NCBI RefSeq assembly: GCF_003703395.1
Contig: NZ_RDQN01000003.1
Location: 186,001-250,000, forward strand
Source of the DNA: Pseudoxanthomonas spadix
GTDB taxonomy: Bacteria; Pseudomonadota; Gammaproteobacteria; Xanthomonadales; Xanthomonadaceae
DNA length: 64,000 bases
Reading direction: 5' to 3'
Shown here: piece after piece, positions 4,708 to 33,450 of the stretch
Layout: each line of letters opens with the position of its first letter
Numbering within the stretch: the stretch's first letter is position 1
Position numbers and translations under genes: made by a program
Notes under the pieces: model-generated
Seen by the model: the letters and a program-made list of their open reading frames with translations, nothing else
What the model was told of the DNA's origin: nothing
Database searches by the model: none

Positions 4708-4711
4708 TGGC

Positions 4712-4895
4712 GGGTCCCGGGACTCGGGAGTCGGGGCTCGGGACTCGGGACTCGGGACCCGGGACCCGGGACCCGGGACCCGGGGAGGAGCAAGCGCCGA
4801 CAGCGACGGCGACAGCGACAGCAGGCTTTCGCGCTGATGCGTCCGCGCCTCGGCTTTTCCGGGCCCCGGGTCCCGAGTCCCGAGTCCCGAGTCCC
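4712..4895. repeat. Mirrored heptamer element, copy 1 (asd/fimV gap)
   Basis: The left arm (4712-4781) is ten in-register heptamers. From the outside inward they are GGGTCCC, GGGACTC, GGGAGTC, GGGGCTC, two GGGACTC and four GGGACCC, then GGGG. The centre is 4786-4860 (75 nt) and ends in CGGCTTTTCC. The right arm (4861-4895) is GGGCCCC, GGGTCCC and three GAGTCCC. Read from the other strand, the right arm is GGGACTC outside and GGGACCC inside, the same variant order as the left arm. The element could therefore fold into one long hairpin. Seen directly; function unknown. Two related copies lie at 12757-12891 and 21179-21319. Confidence 0.9.
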
Positions 4896-11855: not shown

Positions 11856-12740
11856 ATGAGCTGGCTGAGTAAACTGATGCCTTCGGGCATCCGCACCGAC
11901 GCGGCAACCCGCAAACCCAGGCGCAGCGTCCCCGAGGGGCTGTGGGAAAAATGCGACAGCTGCGGCGCGGTGCTGTACCGGCCCGAGCTGGAAGAAAACC
12001 TGGAGGTTTGCCCCAAGTGCAACCACCACATGGCCATCCGCGCCCGTGCCCGGCTGACCGCGTTGTTCGATCCGGATTCGACCCAGGAGATCGGCGCGGC
12101 CCTGGGGCCGACCGACGTGCTCAAGTTCCGTGACCAGAAGCGCTACGCCGACCGGATCAAGGCCGCGCAGAAGGCCACCGGCGAGCGCGATGCGCTGATC
12201 ACCCTGCAGGGCAAGGTCAAGGGACGCGCGCTGGTCGCCAGCGCCTTCGACTTCGCCTACATGGGCGGGTCGATGGGCTCGGTGGTCGGCGAGCGCTTCG
12301 CCCTGGGCGCGGAGAAGGCCCTGGAGCTGGGCTGCCCATTCGTGTGCTTCTCCGCCTCGGGCGGGGCGCGCATGCAGGAAGGCCTGTTCTCGCTGTTGCA
12401 GATGGCCAAGACCTCGGCCGCGCTGGGTCGCCTGCGCGCGGCCGGGTTGCCGTACATCTCGGTGCTGACCCACCCGACCACCGGCGGGGTGTCGGCCAGT
12501 TTCGCGATGCTGGGCGACATCAACATCGCCGAACCCAAGGCGCTGATCGGCTTTGCCGGCCCGCGGGTGATCGAGCAGACCGTGCGCGAGAAGCTGCCCG
12601 AGGGCTTCCAGCGCGCTGAATTCCTGCTCGAGCACGGCGCCATCGACCAGATCTGCGACCGCCGCGCGCTGCGCGAGCGCATCGCCGAGCTGACCGCGAT
12701 GATGATGCGCCAGCCGGCGCCGCAGGAAACCGCGGCATGA
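11856..12740 (+). CDS. accD: Acetyl-CoA carboxylase carboxyltransferase subunit beta
   Basis: 294 aa. With AccA it forms the carboxyltransferase that makes malonyl-CoA for fatty-acid synthesis. The N-terminal four-Cys zinc finger is visible as CDSC (residues 33 and 36) and CPKC (about 52 and 55). The crotonase-like carboxyltransferase domain follows, with [12 protein letters not shown] and [14 protein letters not shown]. The start is at ATG 11856 because earlier frame is trpA shadow. In relatives folC often follows accD; here the next gene is glmM, across a gap filled by a heptamer element. Confidence 0.96.
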
Positions 12741-12756
12741 GGGTGGGTGGGAGGCC

Positions 12757-12891
12757 GGGACTCGGGACCCGGGACCCGGGACCCGGGAAAGCAGTGGCAA
12801 GGCTTGCAACTGGAGCCAGCGGGGGGAGGGGAAAGCGCGCCTGTGGCCCGCCGGCTTTTTCCTGGGTCCCGGGTCCCGGGTCCCGGGTCCC
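12757..12891. repeat. Mirrored heptamer element, copy 2 (accD/glmM gap)
   Basis: The left arm (12757-12784) is GGGACTC and three GGGACCC. The right arm (12864-12891) is four GGGTCCC. The centre is 12785-12863 (79 nt) and ends CCGGCTTTTTCCT. Complementarity extends outside the arrays: GGGAGGCC before the left arm matches the inverse of GGCCTCCCC after the right arm. It also extends inside, where GGGAAAG pairs approximately with CTTTTTCC. The possible stem is about 40 bp with only a few mismatches. The element occupies nearly the whole 160-bp gap and ends at the base before the glmM ATG. Confidence 0.9.
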
Positions 12892-12900
12892 GGCCTCCCC

Positions 12901-14259
12901 ATGACCCGCAAGTACTTCGGCACCGACGGCATCCGCGGGCGGGTGGGGCAAAGCCCGATCTCGGCCGATTTCATGCTGCGCCTGGGCAATGCCTATGGCC
13001 ACGCGCTGGCCGCGCGCGTGCGCCGGGCCGGGGCCGGCAAGCCGATGGTGATCATCGGCAAGGACACGCGCATCTCCAACTACATGTTCGAGGCCGCGCT
13101 GGAAGCCGGGCTGGTGGCCGCCGGCGTGGACGTGCAGCTGATGGGCCCGATGCCCACCCCGGCCGTGTCGCACCTGACCCGCGCCCTGCGCGCCTCGGGC
13201 GGGATCGTGATCTCGGCCTCGCACAATCCGCATTACGACAACGGCATCAAGTTCTTCTCGACCGAAGGCGAAAAACTCGACGACGCCACCGAGCTGGCCA
13301 TCGAGGTCGCCCTGGAACAGCCGTTCCGGACCGTGGCCTCCGAGCACCTGGGCAAGGCGGTGCGCACCCGCGATGCGGTCGGCCGCTACGTGGAAAGCTG
13401 CAAGAACTCGGTGCCGCGCGAGTTCGACCTGACCGGGATGAAGATCGTGGTGGACTGCGCCAACGGCGCCACCTACCAGGTCGCGCCGATCGTGCTGCGC
13501 GAGCTCGGCGCACGCGTGGAAGTCATCGGCGATGCGCCCAACGGCCTGAACATCAATGACGGGGTGGGTTCGACCCATCCCGAGCACCTGGCCAAGCGCG
13601 TGCTCCTGTCCGGCGCCGACCTGGGGATCGCCTTCGATGGCGACGGCGACCGGGTGCTGTTGGTCGATGGCCACGGCAAGGTGGTCGACGGCGACGGTCT
13701 GCTGTACGTGCTGGCCAGCGACTGGAAGCGCAGCGGCCGCCTGCACGGGGCCGTGGTCGGCACGCTGATGACCAACTACGGCCTGGAAAAGTCGCTGGGT
13801 GAGCAGGGCATCGCCTTCGTCCGTGCCCAGGTCGGCGACCGCTACGTGCACCAGGCGCTGGTCGATGGCGGCGGCGTGCTCGGCGGCGAAGCCTCCGGCC
13901 ACATCCTGTGCCTGGACCGGGCCAACACCGGCGACGGCATCGTCAGCGCGCTGCAGGTGCTGGAAGTGCTGCGGCGCACCGGCCAGCGCCTGGACCAGGC
14001 ATTGAAGGGACTGGTGATGCTGCCGCAGCAGACCGTCAACGTGCGCCTGGAGGGCGTATCGGCCAAGGACGTGGTCCAGGCGCCGGCGGTCAGGGCGGCA
14101 CTGACCCAGGCCCAGCAGTGCGTGGCCGGGCGTGGGCGCGCGTTCCTGCGTCCGTCCGGTACCGAGCCGGTGGTGCGGGTGACGGTGGAAGCCGACGACG
14201 ATGCACTGATGCAGGCCACCCTCGACGCCCTGGCCGGTGCGGTGCGTGCCGCGGCGTGA
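12901..14259 (+). CDS. glmM: Phosphoglucosamine mutase
   Basis: 452 aa. Interconverts glucosamine-6-phosphate and glucosamine-1-phosphate for UDP-GlcNAc, peptidoglycan and LPS. It starts [16 protein letters not shown]. The phosphoserine loop is [11 protein letters not shown] with Ser107 in the catalytic position. The Mg-binding loop DGDGDR is at 246-251, GEASGH is the sugar-specificity loop, and [11 protein letters not shown] binds phosphate near the C-terminus. The ATG at 12901 abuts the right arm of a heptamer element and no Shine-Dalgarno is visible (only GGCCTCCCC upstream). Elsewhere in the class glmM usually follows ftsH-folP; here it has been separated from folP. Confidence 0.96.
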
Positions 14260-19111: not shown

Positions 19112-19864
19112 ATGGCAGAGCAAGCCGCTTATATCCAAGAGCTGTGCACGCGTTTGACCGACGCGGTCGTGACCGTGTCGCCCGCGGGCGAGACCACCAT
19201 CGAGGTGCCGCATGCGCAATGGCATGCGCTGTGTCTGGCGCTGCGCGACAGCTTCGGCTTCGAGCAGCTCAGCGACCTGTGCGGGGTCGATTACCTGGGC
19301 TATGGCAGTGACGAGTGGGATACCGCGGATGTGTCCTCGCAGGGCTTCTCGCGCGGGGTGGAAGGCAAGGCCGTGGGCCGTTTCGCCTGGGGTGAGTTCC
19401 CCTCCCAGGAAAACGGCAACGCCGACGGTGTCCAGCCGATGCAGGTGCCGGTCCAGCGCTTTGCCGTGGTGGTCCACCTGATCTCGTACCAGCACAACCG
19501 TCGCCTGCGCCTGCGCTGCTATGCGCCCAACGACGACGTGCCGGTGGTGGCCTCGGTCACCGACATCTGGCCTGGCGCCAACTGGTTCGAGCGCGAGGCA
19601 TTCGACCTGTTCGGCATCGTCTTTACCGGCCACCCGGATCTGCGCCGCATCCTGACCGACTATGGTTTCGTCGGGCATCCGTTCCGCAAGGATTTCCCGC
19701 TGATCGGCAACGTCGAAGTGCGTTACGACGCAGAGCGCAAGCGGGTGGTGTACGAGCCGGTGACCTCGGTCGAGCCGCGCGTGGGCGTGCCGCGCGTGAT
19801 CCGCGAGGACCCCCGCTACCAGACCGCCGCCGGTGAAGCCGCAGCGCGGGAGTCGAGCAAATGA
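19112..19864 (+). CDS. nuoC: NADH-quinone oxidoreductase subunit C
   Basis: 250 aa, separate from NuoD (in E. coli the two are fused). 30-kDa subunit of the connecting arm. The signature [21 protein letters not shown] is present (here with VTDIWPG), then [15 protein letters not shown] and [10 protein letters not shown] roughly 40-residue insertion around [21 protein letters not shown]-type sequence is typical of xanthomonads by memory. The stop overlaps nuoD (ATGA). Confidence 0.97.
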
Positions 19865-21171
19865 GCGCACACGTCAGGCCATCGCATGAAGCCTTCGCCA
19901 GCAATCCCAGCGAAGGCAAGCAGGAAATCCGCAACTACACGATGAACTTCGGCCCGCAGCATCCGGCCGCGCACGGCGTGTTGCGCCTGATCCTGGAAAT
20001 GGACGGCGAAACCATCGTCCGTGCCGATCCGCACATCGGCCTGCTGCACCGTGGCACCGAGAAGCTGGCCGAGTCCAAGCCGTTCAACCAGTCGATCGGC
20101 TACATGGATCGCCTGGACTACGTGTCGATGATGTGCAACGAGCACGCCTACGTGCTGGCCATCGAGAAGCTGATGGGCATCCAGGCGCCCGAGCGCGCGC
20201 AGTACATCCGCACGATGTTCGACGAGATCACCCGGATCCTGAACCACCTGATGTGGCTGGGTTCCAACGCGCTGGACCTGGGCGCGATGGCGGTGATGCT
20301 GTACTGCTTCCGCGAGCGCGAAGAGCTGATGGACTGCTACGAGGCGGTCAGCGGCGCGCGCATGCATGCCACCTACTACCGTCCGGGCGGGGTCTATCGC
20401 GACCTGCCCTCGCAGATGCCCAAGTACAAGGAATCGCCCTGGCACAAGGGCGCTTCGCTCAAGCGCATCAACGCCGCGCGCGAGGGCTCGCTGCTGGACT
20501 TCCTGGAAGACTTCACCAGGACCTTCCCGAGCCGCGTCGACGAGTACGAAACCCTGCTCACCGACAACCGCATCTGGAAGCAGCGCACCGTGGGCATCGG
20601 CGTGATCACCCCGGACCAGGCGCGTGCCTGGGGCATGACCGGGGTAATGCTGCGCGGTTCGCAGATCGAATGGGACCTGCGCAGGAAGCAGCCCTACGCC
20701 AAGTACGACGCGATGGAGTTCGACATCCCGGTCGGCATGAATGGCGACTGCTACGACCGCTACCTGGTGCGCGTGGCCGAGATGCGCCAATCCAACCGCA
20801 TCATCGCCCAGTGCGTGAAGTGGCTCAAGGCCAACCCCGGTCCGGTGATGGTGGAGAACTTCAAGGTCGCCCCGCCCAGGCGCGAGGCCATGAAGGACGA
20901 CATGGAAGCGCTGATCCATCACTTCAAGCTGTTCAGTGAAGGCTACTGCGTGCCGGCCGGCGAGACCTATACCGCGATCGAGGCGCCCAAGGGCGAGTTC
21001 GGCTGCTACCTGGTGTCCGATGGCGCCAACAAGCCGTTCCGCGTGCACCTGCGCGCGCCGGGCTTCGTCCATCTTTCGTCGATGGACGCGATCGTGGTCG
21101 GGCACATGCTGCCGGACGTGGTCGCGATGATCGGCACCTATGATCTGGTGTTCGGCGAGGTGGACCGGTGA
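19861..21171 (+). CDS. nuoD: NADH-quinone oxidoreductase subunit D
   Basis: 436 aa. 49-kDa subunit that forms the quinone pocket with NuoB; related to NiFe-hydrogenase large subunits. It shows [26 protein letters not shown], and the quinone-site Tyr/His segments in DRLDYVSMM and GPQHP. The C-terminus ends VFGEVDR, as the family does. The nuoD stop is followed by a 160-bp gap containing a heptamer element, which splits an otherwise tightly packed operon. Confidence 0.97.
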
Positions 21172-21178
21172 ACGGCTC

Positions 21179-21319
21179 GGGACTCGGGTTTCGGGACTCG
21201 GGGCTCGGCGAACGTCGGTCCATGGCTCCCCTTTCTGCAACTGCACCAAGGTTTTTCGACGGTCCGGGCATTCCGGCGCATGGGCTCTTCCGAGTCCCGA
21301 GTCCCGAGTCCCGAGTCCC
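21179..21319. repeat. Mirrored heptamer element, copy 3 (inside the nuo operon)
   Basis: The left arm (21179-21206) is GGGACTC, GGGTTTC, GGGACTC, GGGGCTC. The centre is 21207-21291 (85 nt) and ends GGGCTCTTCC. The right arm (21292-21319) is four perfect GAGTCCC. Here both arms use the GGGACTC variant, whereas copy 2 uses GGGACCC. The GGAG that follows the last heptamer appears to supply the nuoE Shine-Dalgarno. Confidence 0.9.
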
Positions 21320-21331
21320 GGAGATTCACGC

Positions 21332-21859
21332 ATGAGAGCCACAGGCAATTTCGAAAACGCGCGCCACGTCGATCCGATGGTCGTGCTGAGCGAAAAGACG
21401 CGCGCCCATATCGATCACTGGCTGAGCAAGTTTCCGCCGGACCGCAAGCGCTCGGCGGTGCTGCAGGGCCTGCATGCGGCGCAGGAACAGAACGGCGGCT
21501 GGCTCAACGACGAGCTGATCGCCGCGGTGGCCAGGTATCTGGACATTCCGGCCGTGTGGGCCTATGAGGTGGCCAGCTTCTACTCGATGTTCGAGCTGGA
21601 AAAGGTCGGCCGCCATAACGTGGCCTTCTGCACCAACATCAGCTGCTGGCTCAATGGCGGCGAAGAGCTGGCCCAGCACGCCGAGCGCAAGCTCGGTTGC
21701 AAGCGTGGCCAGTCCACCGCCGACGGGCGCATCTTCCTCAAGCGCGAGGAAGAGTGCCTGGCCGCCTGTTCGGCCGCGCCGATGATGGTCATCAACGGCC
21801 ATTACCACGAACACCTCACACCCGAGAAAGTCGACGCACTGCTGGACGGGCTGGAGTAA
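21332..21859 (+). CDS. nuoE: NADH-quinone oxidoreductase subunit E
   Basis: 175 aa. 24-kDa peripheral subunit carrying [2Fe-2S] cluster N1a. The four cysteines lie in [11 protein letters not shown] and [12 protein letters not shown]. The Shine-Dalgarno GGAG (21320-21323) is eight bases before ATG 21332 and decides the start; the longer frame upstream is repeat DNA. It is separated from nuoF by 4 bp. Confidence 0.96.
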
Positions 21860-33251: not shown

Positions 33252-33328
33252 TGCGGGGTGGAGCAGTCTGGCAGCTCGTCGGGCTCATAACCCGAAGGTC
33301 GCAGGTTCAAATCCTGCCCCCGCTACCA
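33252..33328 (+). tRNA. Initiator tRNA-fMet (CAT), copy 1
   Basis: 77 nt with an encoded CCA. The anticodon stem has the three consecutive G-C pairs of initiators (GGG-CTCATAA-CCC), and the acceptor GCGGGG/CCCCGC leaves position 1 unpaired. Here position 1 is T opposite T at 72; E. coli has C opposite A. The unpaired first position is the formylation determinant. Confidence 0.95.
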
Positions 33329-33373: not shown

Positions 33374-33450
33374 TGCGGGGTGGAGCAGTCTGGCAGCTCG
33401 TCGGGCTCATAACCCGAAGGTCGCAGGTTCAAATCCTGCCCCCGCTACCA
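33374..33450 (+). tRNA. Initiator tRNA-fMet (CAT), copy 2
   Basis: Identical over all 77 nt to the copy 122 bp upstream. The 45-bp spacer contains CTACGT and ACGTAG, a hairpin likely used in processing. No separate promoter is evident, so the two are probably one transcript. Confidence 0.95.

Follow-up and report, generated by a model that had tools for sequence, protein, structure and literature searches.

What a long hairpin is doing between two genes of an otherwise tightly packed operon, and where it came from, is the question raised by the nuoD-nuoE junction of Pseudoxanthomonas spadix, examined here in a window of 64,000 nucleotides (the whole stretch of DNA that was analysed). The stop codon of nuoD ends at position 21171 and the ATG of nuoE begins at 21332, leaving 160 bp that are occupied almost entirely by a hairpin of inverted seven-base repeats (heptads). 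The twelve other nuo junctions measure -10, 30, -4, 4, -4, -4, 5, 7, -4, 7, 19, and 13 bp, four of them being 4-nt ATGA overlaps; this range of -10 to +30 bp agrees with the preliminary description of this DNA, in which the remaining junctions were said to overlap or to lie 4-30 bp apart. The features of the site are as follows.

19861-21171, forward strand: nuoD
21168-21171, forward strand: GTGA, end of nuoD, left copy of the doubled stop/start overlap
21176-21208, forward strand: left arm, G-rich heptad array of CTCGGGA units, 4.7 copies
21209-21289, forward strand: loop or core, 81 nt
21290-21320, forward strand: right arm, C-rich heptad array of CCGAGTC, 4.4 perfect copies, inverted relative to the left arm
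21320-21323, forward strand: GGAG, likely Shine-Dalgarno sequence of nuoE, judged from the sequence
21332-21335, forward strand: ATGA, start of nuoE, right copy of the doubled overlap
21332-21859, forward strand: nuoE

The nuoD-nuoE site and its state in relatives

The hairpin arms (21178-21208 and 21290-21320) are 31 nt long, 90% complementary, and 81 nt apart, and they lie in tandem arrays of period 7 with 80% matches on the left (21176-21208) and 100% on the right (21290-21320). The folding energy calculated for the RNA is -87.2 kcal/mol (z -5.4), with none of 200 dinucleotide shuffles equally stable; arms, arrays, and fold together bear out the earlier view of a heptamer hairpin that makes up nearly the whole 160 bp. 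The arms contain G-tracts, and the stem would compete with G-quadruplex formation. The edge of the right arm reads CCCGGAG, with its GGAG 8 nt 5' of the nuoE ATG, so that the proposal that this edge supplies the GGAG serving nuoE appears correct as far as the sequence goes. A search of the 64-kb window against Rfam returned only three tRNAs above the gathering score and placed the nuo hairpin in no family; two of the tRNA genes (33252-33325 and 33374-33447) have equal Rfam scores and are about 120 bp apart.

Species genomes were scanned with NuoE, and the best 80 of 577 loci were compared, nearly all of them titled Xanthomonadaceae or Lysobacterales, with Pseudoxanthomonas sp. GM95 and P. winnipegensis as the nearest of these. 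Among these best 80, nuoD and nuoE meet in a stop/start overlap at 51 loci (49 4-nt overlaps called by script, plus L073 and L110, reclassified after the junctions had been read), are separated by 13-43 bp at 5, carry a different insert of 82-97 bp at 18 (Stenotrophomonas and one record labelled Bacillus), and carry heptad hairpins of 109-157 bp at 6. Because this junction is an overlap in 51 of the best 80 loci, including that of the nearest relative, Pseudoxanthomonas sp. GM95, the nuoD-nuoE hairpin is an insertion at a stop/start overlap, as the word "inserted" in the preliminary description implied. A comparison of the spacing in relatives had also been suggested there, and an unstructured gap of similar length was not found in near relatives. 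The end of the Stenotrophomonas-type insert (e.g., L043, L055, L035) resembles the 3' end of nuoD, and this insert accounts for one change on the tree described below; the Bacillus record (L074, titled Bacillus subtilis SK7B5) has a nuo locus that groups inside Stenotrophomonas and is probably a contamination.

The six filled relatives are Xanthomonas sp. AmX2, X. albilineans, Xanthomonas sp. GPE 39, and three Luteimonas, and their heptads differ (GGGACTC, GGGTCCC, GGGAATC, GTGATTC, and one like GGCCTCT). ATGA flanks both sides in six of the seven filled copies, the copy in the window being bordered by GTGA and ATGA. These repeats are not certain to be target-site duplications, since any insertion that spares both genes must double those four bases. 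Xanthomonas sp. AmX2 carries a second heptad hairpin between nuoF and nuoG (L047); ATGA borders it on either side, and at this junction the three relatives that were read have an ATGA overlap.

On a tree built from nuoD and nuoE DNA (81 rows, quick IQ-TREE), the heptad state requires at least five changes, and the starred branches also force five, a count that carries no direction (gain or loss). Only 7 of 500 sets of shuffled labels need as few changes as the observed five, so the heptad label is somewhat clustered. The sister of the window on this tree, Pseudoxanthomonas sp. GM95, has an empty site (overlap). The core of the window copy resembles that of AmX2 at the same site (z 10.9, 0 of 500 shuffles as good) far more closely than it resembles 11 other cores of its own genome (z 3.6 for the element L115, at most 2.3 for the other ten), and the two species stand far apart on the tree despite their like cores. 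Judged from this likeness, the window and AmX2 copies appear to share an origin, whether through inheritance, with repeated losses in other lineages, or through transfer. The likeness fits an old insertion followed by repeated clean loss, or lateral transfer, equally well as a new insertion, and for the site as a whole the data fit either one ancient insertion or five fresh ones. No relation of the Luteimonas and X. albilineans cores to that of the window was detected, and the AmX2 and X. albilineans cores compare at z 4.0 or 2.1 under different trimming. Pairs of cores from the same site reach z of at least 4 in 7 of 41 cases, against 10 of 310 for pairs from different sites, and same-site cores are mostly unrelated.

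Copies at other operon junctions

In the 3.37-Mb genome there are 24 exact occurrences of the 15-mer CGGGACTCGGGACTC and 0 of its reversed pattern; with up to one mismatch, the counts are 71 and 1, respectively. Among 38 genomes of the genus, only one other, G036, carries the exact 15-mer. The pattern CGGGACCCGGGACC, with up to one mismatch, is found 241 times, compared to 19 for the control. From 100 of these 241 places we took 28 regions, which are thus not all copies, and arrays of at least 25 bp are present in 26 of them, including two half-sites (L127 and L128) and one element with an IVP gene (L119). The half-sites were left out as empty-site tests, as only one flank matched among the matches listed. 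A typical copy comprises, in order, a stop codon, ...AGC, G-rich heptads, a GGAAGAGC-like motif, a variable core, a GCTCTTCC-like motif, C-rich heptads, and GCTT. Six hairpin copies fold with z from -5.4 to -11.9, and two siblings of the nuo element lie in the window itself, the hairpin of the first being detected at 12755-12893.

12741-12900, forward strand: sibling element between accD and glmM, flanked by ATGA at 12737-12740 and 12901-12904
4711-4895, forward strand: sibling element immediately following the TAG stop of the upstream gene

Copies sit at junctions that we take, by recognition of the genes, to be accD-glmM, accB-accC, rpoB-rpoC, fusA-tuf, ftsQ-ftsA, ftsA-ftsZ, and guaB-guaA. 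They are also found within coding sequences: a gene that is presumably purL (L133, G000:C22:1900-5600, G000 being the genome of the window) contains two heptad elements and has an open reading frame through both, an IspD-like and an IspF-like sequence, as we recognize them, are fused in frame via a heptad element (L115, G000:C1:162400-164900), and the right arm of one copy encodes the start of a protein assumed to be ArgG. Genomes G034 and G036 have heptad arrays of other sequence at both purL places. At two places on the same contig, L111 (G000:C1:12756-13547) and L113 (139153-139769), elements are amplified in tandem in units of about 72 and 90 bp that include core and heptads.

These copies bear on the possibility that the hairpin is a nuo-specific regulatory device that sets the ratio of NuoA-D to NuoE-N, as the preliminary description proposed alongside a possible RNase boundary; the long stable stem placed exactly between the genes and the new GGAG before nuoE speak for such a device. 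The hairpin is, however, missing in the nearest relatives, and the same hairpins stand at the presumed accB-accC, accD-glmM, rpoB-rpoC, fusA-tuf, guaB-guaA, and ftsA-ftsZ junctions and inside the presumed purL. Since the same kind of hairpin occurs in many unrelated operons and is absent from nuo in most relatives, a function specific to nuo is very improbable.

Among 30 loci of the same genus read at accD-glmM, 15 have the 4-nt ATGA overlap, three a gap of -1, five a gap of 5-8 bp (by script), and three an unrelated spacer of 45-73 bp. Hairpins are found in four of the 30 (G000, G036, G030, and G010), with different heptads, matching arms, and ATGA on both sides; in G030 and G010, a longer stretch than ATGA is repeated. 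At 17 sites of the window's genome, period-7 arrays were found in G034 (6 of 17 examined) and G036 (10 of 14), and none in G026 (0 of 16), G027 (0 of 16), and G032 (0 of 17). Under a stricter rule (arrays and arms), the numbers for these five genomes were 5, 6, 0, 0, and 0.

Pairing between arms was compared at accB-accC in ten genomes with IVP elements, in which three heptad classes occur. The left arm fits its own right arm with a mean of 20.35, compared to 16.34 for a random one, and 65 of 20000 permutations were as high (10 of 11 loci; L254 was omitted because the end of accB was not found); within a heptad class, a foreign arm often fits equally well or better. Counting compensatory pairs after aligning these arms with MAFFT was dropped, as the heptads fell into different registers. 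For 20 copies within the window's genome, the effect is weaker (21.45 for the own arm and 19.36 otherwise, 47 of 20000 permutations as high), and it fails singly at L126, L133, and L138, which come out at or close to the bottom of the ranking. Copies in other genomes have a different heptad, and their two arms still match.

IVP genes between heptad arms

Matches to the IVP domain (PF05635) number 23 in the genus, spread over 20 of 38 genomes; in the family, 84 of 198 genomes carry the domain, and in a class sample 77 of 369. The only IVP match in the window's genome lies between heptad arms, at a junction which we take to be carA-carB, and its protein matches PF05635 (1.2e-35), TIGR02436, and PDB 2gsc (XCC0516; 6.2e-27). 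We know of no function for IVP, although its structure has been solved (PDB 2gsc).

The surroundings of the IVP domain were scored at 50 loci (all 23 of the genus and 27 further family loci, best-scoring first). Complementary arms (z at least 5) were present within about 190 bp of the domain at 43 of the 50, compared to 1 of 100 shifted windows. The class sample yielded 29 IVP loci, of which seven with incomplete flanks were left out and 22 were scored, one of these (L315, in G065) belonging to the same family; 18 of the 22 have complementary arms, in contrast to 0 of 44 control windows. No clear arms were seen at 7 of 50 and 4 of 22 loci, respectively. Enclosure in a heptad hairpin is thus far commoner for IVP genes than for control windows. 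In arms of at least 20 nt, the best self-match lag (among lags 3 to 12) is 7 in 41 of 43 and 15 of 15 cases (together 56 of 58), with a mean match at lag 7 of 0.74 and 0.79, compared to 0.17-0.38 at other lags (own shuffles). The period is kept across 31 different majority heptads at 62 loci, and some heptads of the class sample, e.g., TTCAGTG and AGATTCA, contain no G-tracts. An Rfam search of 20 of the 29 class-level IVP loci found no rRNA match. At two accB-accC loci (L243 and L250), the IVP open frame extends back to an ATG in the left-arm heptad array, so the length of the array could affect IVP translation.

An IVP match is present in G000, G034, and G036 and absent from G026, G027, and G032, a comparison of three against three that is confounded with kinship, and G030, which has a heptad hairpin but no IVP match, counts against a strict link.

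The terminal inverted repeats, the short direct repeats at the ends, and the intergenic spread of the copies would also be expected of a MITE or REP-like element whose mobility comes from a transposase, e.g., Y1 (RAYT-type), and the genome does contain seven Y1_Tnp matches, six of them over the cut-off. Five of the seven Y1 loci, read over about 1.5 kb on each side, nevertheless showed no three-unit CGGGNNN array, the terminal repeats lack the fixed sequence between genomes that a transposase would be expected to need, and the protein found inside the elements is IVP. We regard mobilization by a transposase as improbable. The genome gave no match to the PF00078 reverse transcriptase, so copying by a resident reverse transcriptase is also unlikely.

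A proposed IVS-type element in messenger operons

The reading that we prefer, with a probability of roughly 70%, is that the heptad hairpins resemble the intervening sequences (IVSs) of 23S rRNA, living here in messenger operons, and that the nuo copy is an IVS-type element without IVP. In the nuo copy, the IVP gene is absent and no IVP remnant was seen in the core, so its descent from an IVP-bearing element is suggested by architecture only. As in 23S rRNA IVSs, an inverted-repeat stem of about 30 bp encloses a loop, with an IVP gene inside the full-length members, a feature that here belongs to the family and not to the nuo copy. Unlike those IVSs, the present elements lie between or inside protein-coding genes (the nuo copy is not in rRNA) and are numerous in a single genome, with a heptad that varies from one genome to another; their removal by RNase III is predicted by analogy.

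The closest parallel is the IVS of Coxiella burnetii 23S rRNA, which, according to the accessible part of its description, has an inverted-repeat stem and an S23p/IVP ORF and is cut by RNase III in vitro; tandem GACAGAT heptads, variable in number between strains, precede the ORF, the RNase III site lies at the first repeat, and production of the S23p protein in vivo is doubted (PMC4990558). The elements described here share these tandem heptads in the stem, which are not known to define the IVS family. They also share the existence of ORF-less versions with the rRNA insertions of CPR bacteria, where excerpts report ORF-bearing and ORF-less insertions at the same rRNA sites (PMC11270868).

By analogy with these IVSs, cutting of the nuo hairpin by RNase III is plausible, and the hairpin is probably a substrate of this enzyme. 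Within the nuo transcript, a stem of about 30 bp would form and be cut by RNase III as in 23S rRNA, which would split the nuoA-D mRNA from that of nuoE-N with both coding sequences intact. The arm edge CCCGGAG may replace the lost translational coupling with a ribosome site of nuoE's own, and after the cut nuoE would depend on this GGAG. The element would persist because it is nearly neutral.

Short palindromic repeats within operons, or in frame within genes, are familiar from Rickettsia palindromic elements, ERIC, and Correia/NEMIS, the last of which is cut by RNase III. Unlike Rickettsia palindromic elements, ERIC, and NEMIS, in which the sequence is conserved, the present elements seem to conserve period and arm pairing alone between genomes.

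The heptad hairpins very probably belong to the same family as the GGGAATC repeats of Xanthomonas, with which, in the part of that report at hand, they share tandem G-rich heptads, inverted pairs, and a position beside stop or start codons. Rehm et al. (2015) counted 186 and 183 such repeats in two genomes, with 70 and 75 cases of inverted pairs, mostly just past a stop codon or before a start codon, and found G-quadruplex formation in vitro; in assembled X. citri transcripts, ends or starts fell more often in quadruplex-capable than in control repeats (PMC4692102). This excess would fit processing, and other readings exist. Unlike here, the available sections of Rehm et al. (2015; PMC4692102) treat the repeats as quadruplex-forming, with no general association with mobile elements, and do not mention IVP. 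Their counts, inverted pairs, and in vitro quadruplexes, together with the similar placement of copies in the genome examined here, would speak for G-rich simple repeats born by slippage, forming G-quadruplexes, with a regulatory or structural role and unrelated to IVP. Slippage does not, however, explain a clean insertion at an ATGA overlap, two inverted arms of one heptad class, a period of 7 kept across 31 heptads, some without G-tracts, or an IVP gene between the arms, and we consider this origin unlikely.

Seven-base units in tandem, present at many places between genes and at some inside them, are also described, in the accessible portions of the reports, as heptanucleotide elements of Geobacter metallireducens (PMC2700814) and TAACTGA repeats of Beggiatoaceae (PMC4679880), their role being given as putatively regulatory or open; the present elements resemble both. 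Bacterial heptameric repeats have so far been noted piecemeal, with no agreed origin. Searching the literature for the heptamer letters gave no relevant title, and in the open-licence PMC literature we recognized no paper that links IVP genes to heptad repeats in messenger operons, the nearest statement, in the part seen, being the heptads of the Coxiella IVS (PMC4990558).

To go by those portions of the sources, the heptads of Xanthomonas, Geobacter, and Beggiatoaceae were known before, and IVP had been described in 23S rRNA and in cas loci (PMC3936711) and as related to the DGR protein Avd (PMC10053308). What appears new, in the open-licence PMC literature searched, is that IVP genes of messenger operons are enclosed by inverted heptad arrays whose period is constant and whose heptad varies. 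As IVP genes lie between inverted heptad arrays of many sequences in the class sample, the heptad and IVP puzzles are tied together, and both become testable. More tentatively, and with less than even confidence, we hypothesize that rings of the IVP four-helix bundle cause bacterial inverted heptad arrays in general by generating, copying, or holding together seven-base repeats. The heptads of Xanthomonas, Geobacter, Beggiatoaceae, and cyanobacteria would then be arms of one widespread IVS-like family that settles at transcribed operon junctions, and the 23S rRNA IVSs its ribosomal branch. At the nuo locus, a selfish-looking hairpin can be seen to enter a tightly overlapping operon with both proteins unchanged.

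As a separate observation, one genome of the class sample (G548) has eleven weak PF05635-like matches, many of them with the same score, in 1.5 Mb.
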